Positions 17,193-62,411 of a stretch of 64,000 nt of DNA are shown in pieces (position 1 is the first letter of the stretch; each line of letters begins with the position of its first letter). Under the pieces are notes generated by a model. That model made no database searches, was not told where the DNA came from, and saw nothing but the letters and a program-made list of their open reading frames with translations. Source of the DNA: Dioscorea cayenensis subsp. rotundata (taxonomy: Eukaryota; Streptophyta; Magnoliopsida; Dioscoreales; Dioscoreaceae); NCBI RefSeq assembly GCF_009730915.1, contig NC_052476.1, positions 20,007,257-20,071,256 of the forward strand. Reading direction: 5' to 3'. The position numbers were made by a program, and so were the translations under genes.

Positions 17193-18192
17193 NNNNNNNN
17201 NNNNNNNNNNNNNNNNNNNNNNNNNNNNNNNNNNNNNNNNNNNNNNNNNNNNNNNNNNNNNNNNNNNNNNNNNNNNNNNNNNNNNNNNNNNNNNNNNNNN
17301 NNNNNNNNNNNNNNNNNNNNNNNNNNNNNNNNNNNNNNNNNNNNNNNNNNNNNNNNNNNNNNNNNNNNNNNNNNNNNNNNNNNNNNNNNNNNNNNNNNNN
17401 NNNNNNNNNNNNNNNNNNNNNNNNNNNNNNNNNNNNNNNNNNNNNNNNNNNNNNNNNNNNNNNNNNNNNNNNNNNNNNNNNNNNNNNNNNNNNNNNNNNN
17501 NNNNNNNNNNNNNNNNNNNNNNNNNNNNNNNNNNNNNNNNNNNNNNNNNNNNNNNNNNNNNNNNNNNNNNNNNNNNNNNNNNNNNNNNNNNNNNNNNNNN
17601 NNNNNNNNNNNNNNNNNNNNNNNNNNNNNNNNNNNNNNNNNNNNNNNNNNNNNNNNNNNNNNNNNNNNNNNNNNNNNNNNNNNNNNNNNNNNNNNNNNNN
17701 NNNNNNNNNNNNNNNNNNNNNNNNNNNNNNNNNNNNNNNNNNNNNNNNNNNNNNNNNNNNNNNNNNNNNNNNNNNNNNNNNNNNNNNNNNNNNNNNNNNN
17801 NNNNNNNNNNNNNNNNNNNNNNNNNNNNNNNNNNNNNNNNNNNNNNNNNNNNNNNNNNNNNNNNNNNNNNNNNNNNNNNNNNNNNNNNNNNNNNNNNNNN
17901 NNNNNNNNNNNNNNNNNNNNNNNNNNNNNNNNNNNNNNNNNNNNNNNNNNNNNNNNNNNNNNNNNNNNNNNNNNNNNNNNNNNNNNNNNNNNNNNNNNNN
18001 NNNNNNNNNNNNNNNNNNNNNNNNNNNNNNNNNNNNNNNNNNNNNNNNNNNNNNNNNNNNNNNNNNNNNNNNNNNNNNNNNNNNNNNNNNNNNNNNNNNN
18101 NNNNNNNNNNNNNNNNNNNNNNNNNNNNNNNNNNNNNNNNNNNNNNNNNNNNNNNNNNNNNNNNNNNNNNNNNNNNNNNNNNNNNNNNNNNN
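17193..18192. other. Assembly gap, 1000 N
   Basis: Exactly 1000 undetermined bases, the conventional placeholder for a gap of unknown length. Sequence resumes inside the MULE at a point equivalent to about position 8880 of copy 1, so the missing DNA should include some 2 kb of the left arm of copy 2. Confidence 0.95.
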
Positions 18193-52792: not shown

Positions 52793-56164
<3,372 letters not shown>

Positions 56165-56502: not shown

Positions 56503-56815
56503 GGTATAATCATCAAAATAGTCCATGAGCTTTTTCTCTCTTTTTTTTTGGTCCCTCTACTCAGAAATGCTCCTGACTAATCTCTCTACTTTTGAAAATG
56601 TATCCACTTAATTAAAAATATTCTCAACCAGTCCATCTACTTTTAAAAATATACCCACTTGGAGAGACACATTTCTAAAAGTAGAGGAAATGGTTGGGAC
56701 TATTTTTAACTAAGTGACACATTTTCAAAAGTAGAGGGATTAGTCGGGAGAATTTCTGAGTAGAGAGACCAAAAAAGAAGAGAGAAAAGTAGGGGACCAA
56801 CTAGGGTATTATACC
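56503..56815. repeat. Fold-back MITE, Mutator-type family (copy 2)
   Basis: Inverted repeat opening GGTATAATCATC and closing GGGTATTATACC, with inner arms sharing CTCTACTCAGAAATGCTCC and its complement. Flanking 9-mers TTTTTCTTT (56494-56502) and CTTTTCTTT (56816-56824) agree at 8 of 9 bases, consistent with Mutator-type insertion. Related to 2345-2645. It lies ~340 bp downstream of the MAPK stop codon. Confidence 0.75.
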
Positions 56816-56873: not shown

Positions 56874-57036
56874 ATGAAATTAAAAGAGAGCTAGTTACAA
56901 ATAATTTCTGGATGATTAGGGGGTGTCAAGAAAAATAAAATTATTGGGAAAGGGAGAGTGACTAGTAATTTCTGAAAATTGAGGGGGTGTAATGTAAAAA
57001 CCTCATTTATTTACAGTCATTATACAAAAATAACGT
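56874..57036. repeat. Direct repeat flanking the Pack-MULE (left copy)
   Basis: TGAAATTAAAAGAGAGCTA through GGGAAAGG-GAGAGTGACTA, TAATTTCT, GAGGG and CATTATAC. The same order recurs right of the Pack-MULE at 60685-60840, implying that the target was a tandem duplication. Confidence 0.75.
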
Positions 57037-57044
57037 TGAAATTA

Positions 57045-57395
57045 GGTTTAATCCCCTAATTAGTCCCTATAAGTAGGTCAACATGACTCTTTAGTCCCTC
57101 TAATCTAATTTGACCTCCAGAAGTCCCTTTATTTTTTGGATTGAGAAATCCTAGTCCAGAAGCTAACAGACTGGTTTCTCCGTTGATAATTGTTGACGTG
57201 ACATTTTTTCAGATTAAAATATGATGAAACTAATTTAAAAAACCCTAAATGCAGTTTAGTGACTAACTAACTCTCACTTAATGTTTCTGATCTAGATCCA
57301 AATAGGATCAAGACCCGAAGCATTAACAACCTAAATCCTTCATTTTCATCATCTTCTTCTTTTTGTTCTTCTTCTTTCTCCATTAACCCTTCCCT
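57045..57395 (+). repeat. Left terminal inverted repeat of the Pack-MULE
   Basis: Reads GGTTTAATCCCCTAATTAGT through CATTAACCCTTCCCT. The complement of 60339-60683 runs in parallel over its whole length, with a few indels (for example around 57170-57180 and in the TTC-rich part near 57355-57375). Confidence 0.92.
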
Positions 57396-57418
57396 CCATC
57401 TTCATCCTTCAACTTAAT

Positions 57419-60125
57419 GTGTCGGCCTGAGCGACGTTGCGAGCCATGGAAGTGAGAAGAGCGATGCCGTGCTTAGTTGCAGCGATGGTGTTTGTCATGG
57501 GCGCGTTGACAACGAGACATCCATGCACCGTCCCTGCCTAGAGATCAACGTTGTCGATCCCAATGCCAGCGCGGCCAACAACCTTAAGCTGGCTGCGCGC
57601 CGCCTCAAACACCTCACGCGTGACCTTCGTCCCGCTCCTCACTATCAACGCATCGCACAGCGAGATCTTTGCGCAGAGCTCCTCATGTGACAAATTATAA
57701 GAGCAATCTACGTTCGAGAACTCACGAAGGAGTGCCAACCCAGCTTCCCCAAGCTTCTCGGCGACAAGGACGGTGGGTTTGGCATCCGCCGCGGAAGCTG
57801 TCACGTCCCAGCCCAACAGCCGGGCCCGAGAACAGATCGGCCGCATCCAATGGGACTAGGCCCCACTGGGTGCAAGGCCTCAGCTAAAACCTGGTCAGAG
57901 TCTTTTCTAACAAGCAGATATGAATAGAACATAAAAGCACAAATAGGATACTGGAAACTGAAATACTACAAGTACGGACTTTAACAGCCCTATAGAATAC
58001 AAATACAACCCAACAGTTCGCAAATTACAAATACAGTCAGAATACAAGTCTTACACTCTCAAGAAGGTAATATAGAGATATTGATAAAAGCAGACAATAC
58101 GACCCCCAGACAACCCCTGATCCTAGACTTGATCTTCTCCTGCGAGAATAGAATTCACAAAGTGCATGAACCACAAGGGCCCAGTAGGATCGCAGAAAAC
58201 AACAAATATAGCAGATATTGCAGAATAATAGCTCATGCTTCATACAGAATACTGAAAATACGCAGAATACTGGAATAATCCAAAAACACGAAAAACACGC
58301 AGAAATACATCTCCCTGGCTAATAACAGAAATCAACATCACGAGGCTGGATTTTCGACTATGAAGTCGGAACAGAACATAACGTAACGTAATATCAATCA
58401 CTGTAGCCTGGGATCTTCGACCGCAGTCGGGGGGTAGCGCTACTACAGAAAACATGTGCACATGGCTAGGACTTACTCCTCCTAGTTGGGCGAGCCAGGA
58501 ATGGAGATGTACAAAAAACCGCAGAAAAATACTGTAATCACGCATGGAGGAATTCATCGAATAAATAATGCAAATAAGAAAATAAATAAATAAACATAAA
58601 TATCACGCAAATAAATAAATAAATAAAATTATTAAACAATGCAATAATTAAATAATAATTATTGCCAGAAATACGGAATACACAGTGCGAGAGCCTACCT
58701 GGCTCCGAGCTACAGAGTTGGGTTCACCAAGTCCCGCGAACTACAGCTCGGTATGGATCTACCCAAACAGAATATTCTAACTTAGGTTACAAAACTTGGG
58801 CCGGGCCTAAATTACGACTATAGCCCGAGCTAATTCAACAAATAAAAGAGTTCATAGCTAGCAATTAAAGGTTTTCACAAAAATTTAGCTAAGCAATTAA
58901 AATTCTCCATAAAAGCTTTAATCATAACACCATCACAATTAGCTTTCCAAGATTAAAATCAATACAATCCCATGATTCTGAATATATAAATTAATATTTC
59001 TAACATGCACCACAAGCATTTAAGCAATACTAAAAATAAAATTAAACATTAGCATGGACACAGGATTTGGACGAATTTTCAATGAAAAGAAATTTCTAAA
59101 TCATGAAATGCATGCATACCCACACACATACACATATATTTATATACATAACAACAAATAATCAACTAACTTATAACATGGCTGCATACTCACAATGTCA
59201 AGCTTACAAACATGAAAACCTATATTCAAATAATTTAAAACATGAATGCTAATTTACATGTCCAAACTTACAAGATGCATACACAAATATTATAATTAAA
59301 TTATAGGCATCCCTTGGTAGATACAAGCTTGCAAAATCATGAGAGATAAATAAAATCTTAACAAAATAAGGCTGCAGATTCCAAACCTCTCTATATTGCA
59401 ACATGCACACATAGAATTTAAGCTTAAAATTACAAAGGCATGCTACACATAATTATTGAAAATGACCAAAAACACTCAATGACATGAAAAACATGCTCAA
59501 ATAAATTCTCAGATAAACATACATGCTTGGCACTAACAAAACAATTAAAACAAGACAATAAAAAATCTCAGAATTATGAAGAAAATAACAAGTTTACCTC
59601 TAAGCTTGTTGGTGACAAGTTCCATTCAAAAACCAAGCTTAAAGAGAAAAAAAATTGACACAAAAATTCGGCCAAGGTTGAGTTGTTTCAAGGATAAGAG
59701 AGTTTGGAGAGCATGGTGATTGGTTGCACAGCTAAGCCTTTAAAAGCAACCCGTAAACTCAATTATAAGTCTCCACTAATCAACAACAGGCAAACCAATA
59801 ATTCCACTTCAGTCAAGATCCGGAAAATAAGGGCAATGAAACAAACAGTAGGGCCCACTCACCAAACACTCAGTCAAACCAGTCAAAGTAGGAAAAAAAG
59901 AAATTTTACAAACATTACAGAAGCAGAGGCAGCGGAGATATGTGGGTGCTGAGACTCAGTGATTCGTGCGATCGGAGAGATCGCAGGGAGGCGGACGGCG
60001 GAGCCAAGGAAGGAACAACGGTATCTAAAGCCGCGGAGGGAGATGGAGAGCATGGAAGTGGGGATGGATTCCGAGAGCTTGACGCCTGGGGAGATGGCGA
60101 GCTTGGCGGGAGCGAGCGCGGCCAT
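57419..60125 (-). pseudogene. Captured 5' fragment of D-3-phosphoglycerate dehydrogenase, plastid form
   Basis: The parent enzyme makes 3-phosphohydroxypyruvate in the plastid, the first step of serine synthesis by the phosphorylated pathway. The fragment begins at ATG 60125 with a Ser/Arg-rich plastid transit-type sequence (to ~59925). It continues after the LTR from 57793 with [49 protein letters not shown], then a TAG at 57540-57538. Beyond the stop, CLVVNAPMTNTIAATKHG and MARNVAQAD remain readable down to ~57419, where it meets the terminal repeat. So only about the first third of the enzyme was captured; the NAD-binding core, catalytic residues and ACT domain are absent. It is broken by truncation, a nonsense codon and the LTR insertion. 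Confidence 0.92.
57799..59919. mobile_element. Solo LTR inserted in the PGDH fragment
   Basis: 2121 bp beginning TGTCACGTCCCAGCCC and ending ACATTACA (TG...CA), flanked by the 5 bp target duplication GAAGC (57794-57798 and 59920-59924). No second LTR, primer site or coding domain lies inside. Its 5' start motif does not recur within it, so it looks like a solo LTR left by recombination. The large size fits a Gypsy-type element, but the family could not be assigned. It splits the transit region of the captured gene exactly, since the frame continues across once the LTR and one GAAGC are ignored. Confidence 0.85.
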
Positions 60126-60338
60126 GGTTTTGGATCTTGGGGGAGAAAGTGCTGGCCTTTGTTTGGACGAGCTTCCACAAAAATGGCGCTTTTTGGTTCG
60201 AGGAAAAAAGGAGTACTGGATCTAGTCTTATATAATGGTCGGGGATCTTTTTTTCTATTTTTAGTCCCTTGGAATTCCAGAATTGCAATGTGTAGTTTTT
60301 GTTCAAGATCTCAAGTTTGAAAGGTTTGGGTGTAGGGG

Positions 60339-60683
60339 ATGCAGGGAAGGGTTAATGGAGAAAGAAGAACAAAAAGAAGAAGACGATGAAGATGAAGGAT
60401 TTAGGTTGTTAATGTTTTGGGTCTGGATCCTATTTGCATCCGGATCCGAAACATAAAGTGAGAGTTAGTTAGTCACTAAACTGCATTTAAGGTTTTTTAA
60501 ATTAGTTTCATCATATTTTTAATCTGAAAAAATACCATGTCAGCAATTATTAACGGAGAAACCAACGTCTGAACTAGGATTTCTCAATCCAAAAAATAGA
60601 GGGACTTCTGGAGGCCAAATTAGATTAGAGGGACTAAAAGGGCATGTTGACCTACTTATAGGGACTAATTAGGGGATTAAACC
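60339..60683 (-). repeat. Right terminal inverted repeat of the Pack-MULE
   Basis: Complement of the left repeat. Ends ...GGGGATTAAACC at 60683, followed directly by TTGAAATTA. Confidence 0.92.
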
Positions 60684-60684
60684 T

Positions 60685-60840
60685 TGAAATTAAAAGAGAG
60701 CTAATAAAAAATAATTTTTGAATAATTAGAGTTGTCAAGGAAAATAATAAAATGATGAGAAAAGGAGAGTGACTATTAATTTCTAAAAAGTGAGGGTGTG
60801 TATTGTAAAAACCAAGTCATTATACACAAAAACCCCTAAA
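60685..60840. repeat. Direct repeat flanking the Pack-MULE (right copy)
   Basis: Partner of 56874-57036, with TGAAATTAAAAGAGAGCTAA, GAGAGTGACTA, TAATTTCT and TCATTATACA blocks in the same order. It forms part of the upstream region of the mTERF4-like gene. Confidence 0.75.
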
Positions 60841-60935: not shown

Positions 60936-62411
60936 ATGAAATCCATGGCGACCACCGCCATGGCCAAACCCTCGCTTTTCTCCTCACTTCGCATGCAACT
61001 CGCGAAGCCCCACCCCTCTCCCCGCCGCTCATACGTCCGCGCCTCACCCCCCTCCCCTTCCACCCTCTACGCTCGCCCCAGCCTCCAGCAGATGAAGATC
61101 CAGAGCGCCGAGAACCGCGCCCGCGTCTACGACTTCCTCCGCTCCATCGGCATCGTCCCCGACGAGCTTGAAGGTCTGGAGCTCCCCGTCACCGTCGAAG
61201 TCATGCGCGATCGCATCGATTTCCTTCATTCCCTCGGCCTCACCCTTGACGACATCAACAACTACCCCCTCGTCCTCGGATGCAGTGTCAAGAAGAACAT
61301 GATCCCCGTCCTCGACTACCTCGGCAAGCTCGGCGTTCGCAAATCCACCTTCACCGAGTTCCTCCGAAGGTATCCCCAGGTACTCCATTCCAGCGTCGTC
61401 ATTGATCTCGCTCCCGTCGTCAAGTACTTGCAAGGCATGGATATCAAAGCTGGAGACATCCCTAGGGTTCTCGAGAAGTACCCGGAGTTGCTAGGGTTCA
61501 AGCTTGAAGGCACAATGAGCACTTCCGTTGCGTATTTGGTTGGAATCGGCGTTGCAAGGAGAGAAATTGGGCGAATTCTCACTAAATTTCCTGAATTGCT
61601 AGGAATGCGAGTGGGGAGAGTGATCAAGCCTTTCGTCGAACACCTTGTGTGCATTGGCTTGCCAAGACTAGCAGTTGCAAGATTGATTGAGAAACAGCCC
61701 CAAATTCTAGGGTTTGGATTGGAGAACAGAGTGAAGCCCAATGTTGAAGCTCTAGTTGAGTTTGGTGTTAGAAATGAGGCTATTCCATCAGTCATAGCTC
61801 AGTATCCTGATATTATCGGTATCGAATTAATGCCGAAGCTTGCTTTGCAGCAGAGTTTATTCGAAAGCAGCATTTTGATAGGCCGGGAAGATTTCGGGAG
61901 GGTGCTTGAGAAAATGCCTCAGGCTGTTAGTCTCGCCCGGGGGACGATTTTGAAGCATGTCGATTTCTTTACAGGGAATGGTTTTATGTTGAGTCAAGTG
62001 AGTAGGATGGTCGTCGGTTGCCCGCAGTTGCTTGCTTTGAATCTTGATGTTATGAAGATGAGTTTCGAGTATTTTAAAGCCGAAATGGATAGGGATTTGG
62101 AGGCCTTGGTTGAGTTCCCGGCTTTCTTTACTTATGGTCTTGAGTCGGCAATTAGGCCTAGGCAGCAGATGATTGCGAAGAAAGGAGTTGAGTGTTCTTT
62201 GGCATGGATGCTTAATTGCACTGATGAGAAGTTCAAAGAGAGAATGAGTTATGAGTCAATTGGTATCGAGGAAATGGAGGTGGAATCATCGGCATTTGAT
62301 ATGAATTCTTTGTTAGAGCCTAGGGAAGAAGATGATGAAGATGATGAAGATGATGAATTAGAGCATGAGGATGATTTGGATGATGAGGATAGTGATGATG
62401 AGTATGTGTGA
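60936..62411 (+). CDS. mTERF4: mTERF family protein, chloroplast mTERF4/BSM/RUG2-like
   Basis: mTERF proteins are helical-repeat nucleic-acid binders. The mTERF4 subgroup (Arabidopsis BSM/RUG2) acts in chloroplast group II intron splicing and plastid development. A single open exon encodes 491 residues. The first ~55 are Ser/Pro/Arg-rich with few acids, a plastid transit-type sequence. From ~70 to ~410 come successive ~30-residue mTERF repeats with the Leu/Pro pattern (YPLVLGCSVKKNMIPVLDYL, YPELLGFKLEGTMSTSVAYL, FPELLGMRVGRVIKPFVEHL, QPQILGFGLENRVKPNVEAL). The tail (455-491) is a nearly continuous Asp/Glu stretch coded by GATGA repeats, as in mTERF4 orthologues. There is a second in-frame ATG three codons later; the first was chosen because it precedes the transit region. 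The intronless structure is normal for the family. Confidence 0.92.
   Translation: MKSMATTAMAKPSLFSSLRMQLAKPHPSPRRSYVRASPPSPSTLYARPSLQQMKIQSAENRARVYDFLRSIGIVPDELEGLELPVTVEVMRDRIDFLHSLGLTLDDINNYPLVLGCSVKKNMIPVLDYLGKLGVRKSTFTEFLRRYPQVLHSSVVIDLAPVVKYLQGMDIKAGDIPRVLEKYPELLGFKLEGTMSTSVAYLVGIGVARREIGRILTKFPELLGMRVGRVIKPFVEHLVCIGLPRLAVARLIEKQPQILGFGLENRVKPNVEALVEFGVRNEAIPSVIAQYPDIIGIELMPKLALQQSLFESSILIGREDFGRVLEKMPQAVSLARGTILKHVDFFTGNGFMLSQVSRMVVGCPQLLALNLDVMKMSFEYFKAEMDRDLEALVEFPAFFTYGLESAIRPRQQMIAKKGVECSLAWMLNCTDEKFKERMSYESIGIEEMEVESSAFDMNSLLEPREEDDEDDEDDELEHEDDLDDEDSDDEYV

Follow-up and report, generated by a model that had tools for sequence, protein, structure and literature searches.

The window, by which we mean the whole stretch of DNA that was analyzed, is 64 kb long with a GC content of 0.357, and its genes and transposons suggest that it is plant DNA. 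It contains a Pack-MULE that holds a piece of a D-3-phosphoglycerate dehydrogenase (PGDH) gene, with an LTR-type insertion inside this piece, and this arrangement is well supported. The element stands upstream of an open reading frame (ORF) of the mTERF family. The window also has a run of 1,000 Ns at 17193-18192, which is an assembly gap or a withheld stretch, and an Rfam scan of the window gave nothing at gathering scores.

The outer element and its setting

The outer parts of the element, its target and its neighbour are:

56875-57002, plus strand: left unit of the directly duplicated target, which agrees with the right unit in 108 of 130 columns (83%)
57036-57044, no strand: left copy of the MULE target duplication (TSD), TTGAAATTA, from sequence identity of the flanks
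57045-57400, plus strand: left inverted terminus (TIR), 356 bp, 90% identical to its right counterpart (E 5e-139)
57401-57419, no strand: 19 bp that separate the left TIR match from the PGDH match, perhaps TIR remainder or filler
60338-60683, minus strand: right TIR, 346 bp, inverted match to the left arm
60684-60692, no strand: right copy of the MULE TSD, TTGAAATTA, from sequence identity of the flanks
60685-60813, plus strand: right unit of the direct duplication, with the MULE at its start
60936-62411, plus strand: mTERF-family ORF, 491 aa, its ATG 243 bp beyond the MULE TSD

The initial annotation had described inverted termini of about 345 bp and a perfect 9-bp target duplication, and both were confirmed by measurement. 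The TIR alignment has 321 identical columns out of 358, a count that takes in one TSD base, and the K2P distance between the two arms is 0.074; the 345 aligned sites that are left when the 12 gap columns are omitted differ by 17 transitions and 7 transversions. Both outer ends start with GGTTTAATCCCC. The outer 22 bp are the same at both ends and occur at no other site in the window, even with up to three mismatches allowed; two matches were reached in 0 of 100 shuffles. The same TIR end pattern, scanned against viral contigs, gave no match, as expected for plant DNA. As for the TSD, 2,000,000 pairs of positions were drawn at random from the window, and 57 of them shared a 9-mer, where pairs touching N were scored as mismatch.

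MULEs are described as having TIRs of 100-500 bp and a TSD of 9-11 bp (PMC3310237), and the two arms and the 9-bp repeat found here lie within these ranges. What marks a Pack-MULE in addition is a fragment taken from a non-transposon gene, together with the lack of a transposase. Here the gene fragment is that of PGDH, and the sole ORF of at least 120 aa in the element (59940-60320, antisense to PGDH) gave no Pfam family. The element has a total length of 3,639 bp, or 1,513 bp once the LTR-like block and one 5-bp copy are taken out; the stretch between the TIRs is then 792 bp, with the 19 bp beside the left TIR counted apart. The locus is very probably a non-autonomous Mutator-like element, about 1.5 kb long, with a 5' fragment of PGDH that later received an LTR insertion and is broken today.

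The target was already directly duplicated, and the element inserted into the first bases of its second unit. The two units of this target differ by a K2P distance of 0.14 (126 sites), as against the lower value between the TIRs. We also considered whether the 9-bp TSD could be a by-product of the flank duplication, and rejected this because there is no gap or overlap between the left copy and the left TIR, and the match is broken when the boundary is moved by one base, as read by eye from the sequence.

An insertion near an mTERF4 gene had been proposed before, and this is correct at the level of the family: the neighbouring ORF belongs to the mTERF family with a Pfam E value of 2.5e-104, and it had no PDB match at E 0.001. 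The DNA that was formerly just upstream of this ORF is now 3.6 kb farther off. On the other side of the element there is a foldback at 56532-56788 (about 300 bp, self-inverted with 84% identity), which is MITE-like and ends near GGTATAAT...ATTATACC; weaker relatives of it, at about 68-69%, are found near 2333-2655. Farther upstream on the plus strand are two ORFs (53352-53726 and 54534-54896), which look as if they belong to a protein kinase gene of the MAP-kinase type.

The PGDH fragment and the block that splits it

Between the TIRs the following features were found:

57420-57798, minus strand: downstream part of the PGDH fragment, which begins where the catalytic (substrate-binding) domain starts and contains an in-frame TAG (57538-57540)
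57538-57846, minus strand: ORF of 102 aa that starts at an ATG within the final 48 bp of the LTR block (minus strand) and reads in frame into PGDH up to the TAG
57794-57798, no strand: left copy of the GAAGC duplication, from flank comparison
57799-59919, no strand: TG...CA block, probable solo LTR, 2,121 bp, with conflicting orientation signals
59920-59924, no strand: right copy of the GAAGC duplication, from flank comparison
59920-60125, minus strand: upstream part of the PGDH fragment, with the ATG and a presumed plastid transit peptide
60126-60337, minus strand: 212 bp 5' of the PGDH ATG, up to the right TIR, with TATATAAG at 60227-60234

When the minus-strand frame is joined over the 5-bp duplication, it opens with the ATG (60125) and a presumed transit peptide, about 70 residues long, which is followed by KPTVLVAEK...DNVDL. 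The frame then reaches the TAG and continues for another 39 residues, so that the rejoined frame is 153 aa long up to the stop. The pre-stop piece matches PDB 9jcm/9jcn, a D-3-phosphoglycerate dehydrogenase, over chain residues 80-161 (E 9e-36), and the piece after the stop matches the same entries colinearly over residues 165-203 (E 9e-14); the stop therefore falls at chain residue 164 and there is no frame shift. The pre-stop piece also contains positions 1-77 of the 134 positions of Pfam 2-Hacid_dh (E 5e-18), and no Pfam family was found in the post-stop piece. The claim of a plastid-type PGDH 5' fragment between the termini stands as PGDH homology, seen in both pieces with PDB and in the pre-stop piece with Pfam as well. 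Because the 68-residue N-terminal part gave no PDB match at E 1 and no Pfam family, its plastid targeting may be suggested from its place and make-up. In a functional PGDH the frame is intact and covers the catalytic and NAD-binding parts in full; the frame here is interrupted by the TAG and by the LTR block, and the fragment ends at ...VAQAD.

The captured coding parts have GC contents of 0.574 and 0.615, the TIRs 0.351 and 0.361, and the flanks 0.29. The 212 bp that precede the ATG are probably a captured 5' UTR with a putative core promoter, in which TATATAAG is a possible captured TATA box. TATA motifs occur in the window at the level of chance (11 found against 10.04 expected), and for this reason promoter capture is put forward as a suggestion. 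In the collection of papers that was searched, none names both Pack-MULEs and phosphoglycerate dehydrogenase. We also considered a plain segmental duplication of PGDH; judged at this locus, it was rejected, since the piece is bounded by the TIRs and the 9-bp TSD.

The block that splits the fragment had been described as 2,121 bp long with TG...CA ends and a 5-bp duplication, GAAGC, and it was recovered with exactly these properties. In order to judge its boundaries, we took as candidates all TG...CA pairs between the TIRs that are 500-2,800 bp long and have identical 5-bp flanks. There are 13 such pairs, and the ends and the 5 bp are therefore weak evidence when taken alone. Only one of the 13, at 57799-59919, reopens the PGDH frame (through KPTVLVAEK), and this restoration supports the insertion independently of the block ends. 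That the boundaries arose by chance was rejected, since the other 12 pairs leave the frame closed.

The TG...CA ends, the 5-bp duplication and the precise insertion are those expected of a solo LTR. None of the 11 ORFs of at least 40 aa that lie wholly inside the block has a Pfam domain (17 ORFs overlap the block). From its ends, its duplication, the restored frame and the lack of a Pfam domain in these ORFs, the block is probably a solo LTR, and it may have been left by LTR-LTR recombination. Another explanation is that the block is a complete small non-autonomous element with TGT...ACA ends and a 5-bp duplication. The absence of Pfam domains from the inner ORFs agrees with such an element as well, and no further copy of the block was found within the window, nor did a piece of it used as a pattern match viral contigs, as expected for plant DNA. 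The orientation signals also clash, with AATAAA found ten times on the plus strand and never on the minus strand, and two TATA-like hexamers on each strand (the block being read shifted by one base). However, TG...CA ends with a 5-bp duplication are the usual signature of an LTR, and solo LTRs occur commonly in plant genomes. We consider a small complete element improbable, and the solo LTR is the preferred reading.

Present coding capacity and probable decay

At present the ORF that starts at the PGDH ATG is 80 aa long and stops within the block at 59883; it would be almost wholly presumed transit peptide. The initial annotation had suggested that the captured piece could send a short protein to plastids. 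This is unlikely now, both with an ORF that ends in the block and with a rejoined frame that stops after 153 aa, and the idea is further weakened by the loss of conserved residues past the stop.

Conservation was assessed against 35 bacterial and archaeal homologues, all 35 of which were aligned. These were fetched with six bait peptides, all of them from before the stop, and 25 of the 35 contain one or other of these exactly; the comparison of the two sides of the stop is confounded for this reason. Among positions conserved at 95% or more, none of 10 is changed before the stop and 3 of 7 after it (Fisher p 0.05); at 90% the bait-biased counts are 1/15 and 3/8 (p 0.10), at 80% they are 1/19 and 3/9 (p 0.08), and at 70% they are 4/32 and 9/17 (p 0.005). 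Half of the 10 pre-stop positions at the 95% level fall in bait peptides. When bait positions are removed the counts become 0/5 against 3/7 at 95% (p 0.20), 1/9 against 3/8 at 90% (p 0.29), 1/12 against 3/9 at 80% (p 0.27) and 1/14 against 9/17 at 70% (p 0.009). The 9jcm chain keeps all seven post-stop positions of the 95% level and itself departs at 5 of the 17 post-stop positions of the 70% level. The three near-invariant residues that are lost after the stop are kept in the 9jcm chain, which is consistent with decay, and decay of conserved residues is seen solely in the last 39 residues.

Such a contrast could also arise if the frame before the stop was, or still is, a short protein, of 153 aa before the LTR arrived or of 102 aa read from the ATG in the LTR block today. 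The unchanged 95% positions before the stop, set against three changed ones after it, would fit with this, as would the 102-aa ORF, which leaves the block and enters PGDH in its reading frame. Yet the contrast carries the bait bias: outside the baits it reaches a low p value at the 70% level alone, where 9jcm departs too. Identity to the 9jcm chain is alike on either side of the stop (65/82 before and 30/39 after), and the catalytic domain is present only in part. We regard a short protein as highly improbable, and the further idea that the LTR block supplied a new ATG and could drive a 102-aa chimeric, non-plastid partial PGDH, a transposon within a transposon, as scarcely credible. The reading that we prefer is decay, and the PGDH part would seem to be without function today.

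Order of events and comparison with known systems

The course of events that explains the locus best is that a Pack-MULE took up a copied stretch from a nuclear PGDH gene of the plastid type, probably comprising 212 bp 5' of the ATG together with the presumed transit peptide and some 120 residues from the conserved part of the enzyme. A transposase supplied in trans would then have put this Pack-MULE, or its ancestor before the capture, into AT-rich DNA upstream of the mTERF-family gene, with the 9-bp duplication as a result. An LTR retrotransposon would next have entered the PGDH part, making the 5-bp duplication, and would probably have been cut to one LTR by recombination between its two LTRs.

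Two steps of this order are firm: the PGDH piece is certainly older than the LTR block within it, and solo formation, if the block is a solo LTR, is later than the LTR insertion. The initial annotation had called the whole order fixed, and this was wrong. The order given there is one of at least three that are compatible with the nest, because capture in place, or transposition with the LTR aboard, leaves the same nest. In principle, a MULE may insert first and capture later by gap filling in place, a mechanism described in PMC8277862. The same parts could have been assembled in another order, either with the MULE first upstream of the mTERF gene and PGDH captured there by gap-filling repair, or with a Pack-MULE that arrived with the LTR already inside. 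The nested duplications leave these steps unordered, and for the single-copy Pack-TIRs of animals, gap filling that is independent of transposition has been described (PMC8277862). The TIR distance of 0.074 against 0.14 in the flank duplication bears weakly on this question, and on the element versus the flank duplication only. Against another order, 36% (481/1337) of rice Pack-MULEs are multicopy, a figure quoted in PMC8277862, so that many move after capture. One of these other orders is a real possibility, a little short of an even chance.

The anatomy of the locus is real, and each of its layers is debris of a sort that is usual in plant genomes: a Pack-MULE with clear bounds, in which a probable solo LTR is nested. 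It is a clean and legible stack of two known processes, the capture of a gene piece by a MULE upstream of a gene and then an LTR insertion, and it opens no long-standing question. Its main bearing is on annotation, since automatic gene prediction could report a PGDH gene at this locus that is false. The duplicated target, the possible captured TATA box and the 102-aa ORF from the LTR block into PGDH are new with respect to the initial annotation.

Like other plant solo LTRs, the inner block has TG...CA ends, a 5-bp duplication and no coding domain found in it, and with 2,121 bp it is long. Nested insertions in Pack-MULEs are expected by annotators, who in tomato masked them prior to element sizing (PMC3310237), and the present case shows no difference from this. 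The distribution of Pack-MULEs in maize and rice peaks just upstream of TSSs (PMC7337890), and Pack-MULEs take GC-rich sequence (PMC3310237, PMC4858842); the GC-rich capture and the site 243 bp upstream of an ATG are thus traits typical of Pack-MULEs. With the Pack-MULEs of rice, maize, tomato and Arabidopsis the element shares the long TIRs, the 9-bp TSD, the GC-rich 5' gene fragment, the absence of any transposase found and the site just upstream of a gene. It differs from them in that its capture is split by an LTR-like block and in the 792 bp between its TIRs, which is more than the 305 bp cited in PMC8277862, and it is the same in kind.
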